Source: Alphaproteobacteria bacterium UBA4588
GTDB taxonomy: Bacteria > Pseudomonadota > Alphaproteobacteria > Puniceispirillales > Puniceispirillaceae
Length of the DNA stretch: 42,420 nt
Reading direction: 5' to 3'
Assembly (NCBI GenBank): GCA_949529445.1
Contig: CATISA010000109.1
Span: forward strand, 1-42,420
Part shown: positions 32,451 to 38,430 of the stretch, piece after piece
Layout: each line of letters begins with the position of its first letter
Position numbering within the stretch: the stretch's first letter is position 1
Position numbers and translations under genes: made by a program
Notes under the pieces: generated by a model
Told to the model about the DNA's origin: nothing
Database searches by the model: none
What the model saw: the letters and a program-made list of their open reading frames with translations, nothing else

Positions 32451-34454
32451 ATGTTCGGTAATCGCTCTTTTCTCTCCTTTATAGCGGCAAGCCTGCTTTT
32501 GCTTACAACGCCTGCTACCGCGCAGGATGCTGGAGAAGCACCGTCGGCAACGGGCCCGATTTCACTTACGGGTCTTACAGCTGGAGCATCTGATCCTGCT
32601 GTTGATAGCGAGGCAGGTGCGGCCCTCTCAAACGTGAGTGAGGGCATTATTTATAATGCCACGAGCACCCTTAACGAGCCTAAAACAGCAGAAAGTGATG
32701 TTGCCTCGCCAACATCAGTCATCACCATTGGTGAAACAGAAATTAATATGACGGCAGAGGCCCCAGAAGCCACTATGCAGAGCTCAGAAGAGCCATCCAC
32801 CACAGCCCTGACAGAAGATAATGCTAGCATGAGTGTCACCCGCACGCCTCAGCCTGCTAATCGTATCGGGCTTCGGTCTGTCTCCAATATCGGCCTTGCA
32901 TCAATTGGTCTGCTACAAGAAGATGCGCCAGCCCCGTTAAACAGCTTCATCTGGCGGCAGAGCGAAACTGCAAACATCCTATCTCTTATTTTATCAACGC
33001 CGTCTTATGGGTCTTCAAACACATTATCAACCCTGTCACGCCAGATTATGGTACAGCCTGCAGTGCCGCCTCTCAATGCCCAACAAAATATAAATGCTTT
33101 GGTGTCAGCGCGGCTTGAATGGCTTGCTGGCGCTGGTCAGTCAGACAGTCTGTCTGCGCTTGTTCGCAAATTACCTGATGATGAAGAATGGAACGACTGG
33201 AAGCGCTGGCAGGTGCAGTATGATCTAATGCGCCGGGCTGATGATACAGCTTGTAACGAGGCCAGTCGTCGGTCGGCTGAAACGTTGGATGGGTTCTGGC
33301 ACAAGGCTAATATTATCTGCCTATTATTATCAGGGCAGAATGCCCCTGCCTCTTTTGCTTCTGATATTTTGAATGCGAGCGGTGAAGATGACGATAATTT
33401 CTTTCAGCTGGTTGATAAGCTTCTGGGCCGTCGGACCGAAATTTCATTGGATATGAATGACCTAAGCCTTGTTCATCTGATGTTGATGGATGCAGCGCAT
33501 GAAACAATATCGCTTGATGCGCTAGATAATATGCCATCTTCCATGATTCAGGCATTGCCAGCCTTCCGGTATCTGGACCCCGCTGCTAGCGTGACGGTAA
33601 GTTATAGGCTATATGAACGAGGCCTGCAAAGTAGCAGTGATACTGAACAAATTTGGCGGTCGCTCAAAACGGCGCCAGTTCCTGCCGAAGCAGCCTTGTC
33701 TGAACTTGGTTCTGTCTCAAAGCCAGGGCCTGGCATGCGTTCGTTACATGGTTCTTCTAGCCCTTTTTTATGGGTTGCGTTGATGAATAGAACAGGCGCT
33801 GATACTGATTCTTTAGTACGTGCCGCCCTTGAGGCAGAGGCCCGCGCAGGACGCCTCTCTGTTCTTTTGCCGCTATATGATAGCCTTGTAAGGCACCGCG
33901 TTAAGGTAAATAATGCAGGCACGTTAGATGATATCACAGCACAGCTCTATTCATTCGTGATGAAGGCAAATCATCCAGCGCAGGCCCTTCCCGACGGCTT
34001 ATCTCGTCAAGGAGGCGAAGCTAATTATTTATCACAAATACTGAATGTTGCATCAGGGGATGTTTGGGATGTAAATACCCTTGAAGGGCTGGATTTGTGG
34101 CATCTATTACCATTACTTGATGCGCTTGGATTGCAACGCCCCGAAGAAGAGTGGCTTGCGCGCTCGCATGATGAAGCAGCAACACAGCTTACTTTGGGCA
34201 GGTCCTATCTGAACGTACCAGTGGGTAAAATGCTGGCACTACAGCAGGCATCAGGTTCAGGCCGAATTGGCGAGACAATTCTGTTAATTGCCCATCTGGT
34301 ACAGGAAGCCCATCTTGGCTATTTCCGTCCCGAAGATGGCGCCGTTATGATACAGGCTCTTAGCGCGATCGGGCTTGAAGATGCGGCGCGCAATTTTGGT
34401 AGGGAGCTCATTATTGGACAGCTAGAACGCCACTATCAGGCTCAGGAAAACTAG
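32451..34454 (+). CDS. large exported protein of unknown function
   Basis: A 667-residue protein with a Sec signal peptide (basic RSF start, hydrophobic FIAASLLLLTT, likely cleavage after PATA at residue 24). Residues 25-150 are Ala/Ser/Thr/Glu-rich and probably disordered. The rest is a helix-rich body with many Leu/Ala-patterned segments (NALVSARLEWLAGAGQSDSLSALVRKLP; LEGLDLWHLLPLLDALGL shown in part), as in helical-repeat proteins, though I cannot assign TPR or any named repeat. No transmembrane segment after the signal and no catalytic motif are evident. It lies between the small peptide gene and xerD (nine bases before it). I do not recognise the family. Confidence 0.8.
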   Translation: MFGNRSFLSFIAASLLLLTTPATAQDAGEAPSATGPISLTGLTAGASDPAVDSEAGAALSNVSEGIIYNATSTLNEPKTAESDVASPTSVITIGETEINMTAEAPEATMQSSEEPSTTALTEDNASMSVTRTPQPANRIGLRSVSNIGLASIGLLQEDAPAPLNSFIWRQSETANILSLILSTPSYGSSNTLSTLSRQIMVQPAVPPLNAQQNINALVSARLEWLAGAGQSDSLSALVRKLPDDEEWNDWKRWQVQYDLMRRADDTACNEASRRSAETLDGFWHKANIICLLLSGQNAPASFASDILNASGEDDDNFFQLVDKLLGRRTEISLDMNDLSLVHLMLMDAAHETISLDALDNMPSSMIQALPAFRYLDPAASVTVSYRLYERGLQSSSDTEQIWRSLKTAPVPAEAALSELGSVSKPGPGMRSLHGSSSPFLWVALMNRTGADTDSLVRAALEAEARAGRLSVLLPLYDSLVRHRVKVNNAGTLDDITAQLYSFVMKANHPAQALPDGLSRQGGEANYLSQILNVASGDVWDVNTLEGLDLWHLLPLLDALGLQRPEEEWLARSHDEAATQLTLGRSYLNVPVGKMLALQQASGSGRIGETILLIAHLVQEAHLGYFRPEDGAVMIQALSAIGLEDAARNFGRELIIGQLERHYQAQEN

Positions 34455-37671: not shown

Positions 37672-38430
37672 TCACATAACACGCAAGAGTATAAGAGCAC
37701 TTACGGATGCTGCCTTGCCGTGGCTCATGAGCAGGCTAGCGCAGCTTTCCATTGTTGCGCCTGTTGTTACTACATCATCTATAAGCAGGATATGTTTGCC
37801 CATGGTCACATCAAGATTGCCATTTTTCAGCCGAAAGGCGCCAGATGCATTTTGAAGTCACTTTTTACCTGTTAGGCCACCCATCGTGCGGGTATTGCGA
37901 TGACGAAGCAGAATATTCGGCCTGAAATGGACAGTATGGTGACTGCCAGCACTCAGATGTCTTGTAAGCTCTGCTGACTGATTATACCGGCGGGAAAAAT
38001 ACCGCGCTTTATGAAGTGGGACTGGCATAATTATCATCCCATCTGATGCCATGGCGTCAAATATAGGGCGCAAAAGCTAAACGAGCAGCGGCGTGAGAGA
38101 TAATCTATCTGCATGTTTGAAGGGGAGAATCAGACCTTTTGAGACATCATCATAAATCAACACACTGCGTACTTGTTTTAAAACAGACTCTGTCACATGA
38201 CAGCTTCCGCAAAGTGATTCGAGGAGTGCATGAGCCAGAGGGCGCCTGCATCGCGCACAAAATGGCGCTGATATGTGGTTTAGCCCAAGCCAGCAGTCTG
38301 TGCATAATCCTCGATCTACCACATGGGCGCCACACAAAGCGCATCCATTTGGCAACAAAATATCCAGTCCATGTCGGAAAAGCTGGTAGATAGATGGATA
38401 TAAAATTCGGGGAGGTAGATATTTGCGCAT
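37672..38430 (-). pseudogene. comF: comF, interrupted by two in-frame stop codons
   Basis: A ComF-family phosphoribosyltransferase-like protein, a DNA-uptake factor in naturally competent bacteria. The frame from ATG 38430 to TGA 37672 is 253 codons with no frameshift. TAG at 38077-38079 is codon 118 and TGA at 37858-37860 is codon 191. Everything around them is conserved: zinc-finger cysteines CALCGAH, CTDC, CARC and CGSC near residues 30-90, MPVPLH and RRYNQSAEL near 135-150, and the PRPP-binding LLIDDVVTTGAT near 220. Both stops replace ordinary residues (near LLV-stop-LL and GKK-stop-LQ). Start has AGGAT upstream. Either the gene has recently been inactivated, the stops are sequencing errors, or readthrough occurs. 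Confidence 0.88.

Follow-up and report, generated by a model that had tools for sequence, protein, structure and literature searches.

The comF homologue analysed here carries two in-frame stop codons and no frameshift, which raises the question of whether the gene is dead, translated past its stops, retained in part, or only apparently broken. It lies in a window of 42,420 nucleotides, the whole stretch of DNA that was analysed, which is contig C109 of genome G000, a 98% complete SAR116 MAG of 1.93 Mb in 159 contigs. Translation of the minus strand from 38430 down to 37672 gave a frame of 252 codons and a terminal stop. The internal stops were exactly where the initial annotation, made from the letters alone, had placed them (TAG at codon 118 and TGA at codon 191). 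That annotation gave no strand for comF, which is on the minus strand. The features of the locus are as follows.

38430-37672, minus strand: comF, very probably a pseudogene; frame of full length, interrupted by two nonsense codons but not by a frameshift
38200-38367, minus strand: double zinc ribbon (Pfam DZR_2), residues 22-77, 5' of the first stop, with 8/8 cysteines kept
38077-38430, minus strand: longest remaining reading frame, 117 codons, zinc ribbons only
38077-38079, minus strand: TAG at comF codon 118; CAG (Gln) in the sister species G001
37858-37860, minus strand: TGA at comF codon 191; CGG (Arg) in the sister species G001
37714-37818, minus strand: phosphoribosyltransferase PRPP-loop region, residues 205-239, LLIDDVVTTGAT, 3' of both stops

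The comF frame remains readable beyond both stops

For profile scans of the protein, we placed an X at both stops. The DZR_2 model (PF18912) scored 47.4 bits against a cut-off of 27, which places the N-terminal double zinc ribbon of the ComF family in this protein. Together, the DZR_2, comF and GntX models covered residues 22-250, with the comF and GntX models matching residues 28-250. PF00156 reached 25.7 bits in the protein scan, just below its cut-off of 26.3, and 27.7 bits in the genome scan, above it. We counted the C-terminal phosphoribosyltransferase domain with its PRPP loop as present, LLIDDVVTTGAT being readable. These matches agree with the earlier description of zinc fingers and a PRPP loop that read cleanly. 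Scores under the more specific models were below the curated NCBIfam cut-offs, at 96.8 bits for TIGR00201 (ComF; cut-off 233.55) and about 89 bits for GntX (PRK11595; cut-off 304), and the window gene is therefore placed, as a predicted member, in the broad ComF family only. The low TIGR00201 score, which comes from the window copy, may reflect divergence of the family rather than decay.

The initial annotation had called for a comparison with close relatives, and the sole other genome of the same genus in our comparison was G001. There, comF is intact, shares 81% identity with the window copy and lies in the same gene order, with sense codons (CAG and CGG) at both sites. In a scan of named genomes, which does not cover the window's own kin, no relative exceeded 43% identity. 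Because the 759-bp alignment of the two copies has no gap, the locus is a single frame with two nonsense changes and not a chance arrangement; the absence of a frameshift noted earlier thus extends over all 252 codons. The disabling changes are derived, as G001 and most of the family have an intact comF. Every intact family member in the alignment has an arginine at the TGA position (12 independent rows, the window's own row having been set to Arg at codon 191 by choice).

Separate lesions disable four genes of one pathway

A profile search of the 98%-complete G000 genome returned no match to PF03772 (comEC) or PF02481 (dprA), and both genes have intact copies in G001. In G001, comEC is located between lexA and gltX. 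On G000:C60 (L103), the 2.1-kb gene has lost about 1.77 kb, and the lexA and gltX flanks are joined on a single contig. The boundaries of this gap were taken from BLAST, as a MAFFT drawing of the junction placed the gap wrongly. The lexA-gltX interval there spans about 9.6 kb, and the BLAST pieces flanking the deletion overlap by about 10 bases in G000, making short homology at the junction possible.

The dprA gene, located between plsY and topA in G001, has lost about 0.7 kb between the same neighbors on the single contig G000:C93 (L104). Remnants of its 5' and 3' ends persist at this locus of about 5.3 kb. Only fragments of comM, which is intact in G001, were found in G000, with about 0.77 kb missing inside C26; this evidence includes a contig end, as the 5' end of the gene runs over a contig break. 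In total, comEC, comF, dprA and comM are 4/4 intact in G001 and 4/4 disabled by separate lesions in G000, so that the intact frame within a DNA-uptake pathway expected of a ComF-family gene is lacking there: comF has two internal stops, and its three partners are also disrupted. The separate lesions in four genes of one pathway, those outside comF all lying beyond the window, are the decisive evidence that comF is dead.

Given these lesions, we are confident that comF is a recently dead gene of a lost DNA-uptake pathway. From homology we infer that the four genes serve DNA uptake in SAR116, and the stops make it likely that no functional ComF product is made. One explanation offered initially was that selection for DNA uptake had ceased in this lineage and the gene was lost, and the separate deletions of comEC, dprA and comM in G000, with intact copies in G001, bear this out. 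The other explanations, sequencing or assembly error and readthrough, are, like a change of the genetic code, very unlikely because of the four separate lesions and the loss of the whole pathway.

Sequencing or assembly error, or a mixture of strains in the MAG, could in principle have written false stops into an intact comF, and each consensus base of this 159-contig assembly does rest on assembly. However, the deletions in the three further pathway genes are found on other contigs, and two of these deletions lie within one contig each, between intact flanks. Internal stops were absent from the window copies of the 23 other genes compared. Moreover, comF diverges from its sister copy at synonymous sites no more than its neighbors do, and its amino-acid changes are in excess (see below). 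We consider such false stops highly improbable.

Full-length ComF could alternatively be made if the stops were read through or the code were changed, and the frame 3' of both stops is indeed still recognizable, with dN/dS below 1 (0.155 and 0.293). However, these low ratios can be explained by constraint older than the stops. Genes delimited in the window end in TAG or TGA in 16 of 36 cases (TAG in 10, TGA in 6), G000 has two RF1/RF2-type release factors with open frames, and no suppressor tRNA was present among its 25 tRNAs above cut-off, a list that may be incomplete for a MAG. The initial view that a changed code was unlikely, for which two such genes had been cited, is thus upheld. Furthermore, the TGA replaces the invariant arginine described above, and G000 has lost the partners comEC and dprA. 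Production of full-length ComF is accordingly extremely unlikely, and the low dN/dS 3' of the stops is best explained as a trace of past constraint rather than a sign of translation past them.

Constraint on comF probably relaxed late on the window branch

We next compared substitution rates, as the initial annotation had proposed for Ka/Ks. The dN/dS of comF relative to G001 was 0.195, the highest of 24 window genes (0.01-0.18 in the others), and its dS of 0.52 was similar to that of its neighbors, which points to relaxed constraint. Polarization with 4 outgroup genomes assigned 17 amino-acid changes to the window branch, compared with 5 to that of G001 (p 0.017, uncorrected for the 24 genes compared). 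In none of the 23 other genes did the two branches differ at 0.05. Pooled, these 23 showed a slight excess on the window branch (169:135, p 0.06), and relative to these pooled neighbors the excess in comF had a p of 0.07. Constraint on comF has therefore relaxed, on statistics that are modest.

Two other approaches were discarded. When distant comF homologues supplied the consensus for polarization, the count was 8:0, but it was 7:0 for the neighboring methyltransferase, and the closer outgroups were used instead. Genome-wide acceleration, considered because of the long G000 branch in the topA tree, was set aside since the other 23 window genes have only the slight excess given above. The topA branch itself (L104, G000:C93) had 0.048 changes per column in G000 versus 0.0006 in G001. 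Elsewhere in the window, positions 14509-42420 have a G+C content of 48.7% versus 50.5% in the matching G001 stretch, and positions 32451-34454, upstream of xerD, encode a fast-evolving protein of 667 residues that is 81% identical to its G001 counterpart and 38-48% identical to those of the outgroups.

The distribution of changes along comF bears on whether the 117-residue zinc-ribbon piece survives as a short protein with a function of its own. In favor of this, 8/8 cysteines are conserved in it. However, dN/dS before the first stop (0.173) is no lower than in the two segments after it, and 9/17 of the window-branch changes precede that stop, including G62R at a glycine with a conservation of 0.89. 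Both ComFC domains are required in Helicobacter pylori (PMC9005727), and no other family genome was seen with only a zinc-ribbon piece under constraint. A functional short protein is thus extremely unlikely.

A crude calculation places the unconstrained time of comF at about the last quarter of the branch. About 1 nonsense change would be expected in that quarter, compared with 2 observed and 5 expected had the gene been free over the whole branch, by the same crude reckoning. Because comF has the highest dN/dS of the 24 genes and 17 versus 5 branch changes, constraint appears, crudely, to have lapsed late on the window branch. The very recent loss proposed initially fits this late lapse and the still readable frame, and is correct in combination with the lineage's loss of selection for DNA uptake. 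Some points do weigh against a dead comF: the consensus bases of a MAG rest on assembly, the branch excess is modest, part of the comM evidence meets a contig end, and comF has no indel despite a crudely estimated 46 or so neutral substitutions.

The following course of events would account for these results. The ancestor of the G000 lineage within SAR116 would have carried comEC, comF, dprA and comM of natural transformation, as G001 still does. In the window lineage, internal deletions inactivated comEC, dprA and comM, and two nonsense substitutions inactivated comF. With the ComEC channel or a partner gone, comF would have become useless, so that it then gained nonsense and missense changes at close to the neutral rate. 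The time since loss would be short, leaving the frame otherwise readable. The order of these events is our reconstruction.

Loss of comF and comEC across the SAR116 family

To place this case in context, we assigned each of the four genes (comF, comEC, dprA and comM) to one of three states, intact, broken or absent, in 61 family genomes, with a near-complete subset of 29 genomes (≥ 90% complete). Absence from a MAG, where genes can be missed, is weaker evidence than a lesion seen directly, and lesions were directly visible in comF and comEC of several family genomes. Within the near-complete subset, all four genes were intact in 11 genomes and absent in 5, the rest being intermediate. Of the 11/29 genomes in which comF was not intact, 11/11 also had no intact comEC, compared with an intact comEC in 15/18 of those with an intact comF (Fisher p 1e-5, which ignores shared descent).

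The state of comF changes at least 5 times on the topA tree. Among five independent pairs, comEC changes with comF in an average of 4.4 and in the opposite direction in none, although five pairs are too few for significance. Three of the 29 near-complete genomes keep an intact comF without an intact comEC and none shows the reverse, which suggests that comEC is lost first.

Two other SAR116 genomes are of interest beside the window. In G013, which is 70% complete, comF (L042, G013:C18:28141-31845) keeps nearly its full length in one frame, interrupted by a single TAA stop, a second case like that in the window; dprA is broken there, and no comEC or comM match was found. In the 100%-complete G002 (L053, L095), comF is frameshifted and shortened and comEC has a stop and a frameshift, with dprA and comM intact. 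G002 is an intermediate stage of competence-gene decay.

On balance, we lean towards the view that natural competence was lost independently at least 5 times in SAR116, usually with the ComEC channel going first and comF, dprA and comM decaying later. The genus of the window, with one species intact and one fully disabled, would show this process midway. A single dead comF is ordinary; the recurrent loss of competence is the mildly interesting part. SAR116, a clade abundant in the ocean, includes related species whose DNA-uptake genes range from intact through half-decayed to absent. Such replicate losses could allow the effects of lost transformation on recombination rate, gene content and the efficiency of selection to be compared. 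The word 'competence' was not found in two SAR116 phylogenomic papers (PMC8547437, PMC12262181).

Comparison with known systems

The window gene has the two-part architecture of ComF/ComFC (TIGR00201; PMC9005727) and E. coli GntX (PRK11595): a zinc ribbon rich in cysteines, then a phosphoribosyltransferase domain that carries the DDVVTTGAT loop. Unlike them, it is broken by two nonsense codons. In H. pylori, ComFC is needed for the transport and handling of DNA in transformation (PMC9005727). Transformability has been lost often and recently within species of Legionella and Acinetobacter (PMC11472951), and the dead comF of G000 is a further case of this already known, recurrent loss of competence.

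The closest parallels are two. Pasteurellaceae are ancestrally competent, and some of their species have scattered, unique stops, frameshifts and deletions in competence genes, few per gene, which were read as recent loss (Redfield et al. 2006, PMC1626085). G000 resembles them in the recent loss of competence genes within an ancestrally competent family. However, comF and rec2 (comEC) are intact in 8/8 Pasteurellaceae species (PMC1626085), whereas comEC, comF, dprA and comM have all been hit in G000 and comEC is often missing in SAR116. In Piscirickettsia salmonis, comEC was inactivated by transposable elements irreversibly and in the whole species, with the other genes retained (PMC12955456). 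The loss of the uptake channel is common to P. salmonis and G000, but the remaining genes are intact in the former (PMC12955456), whereas in G000 dprA, comM and comF have also decayed, by deletion and point mutation.
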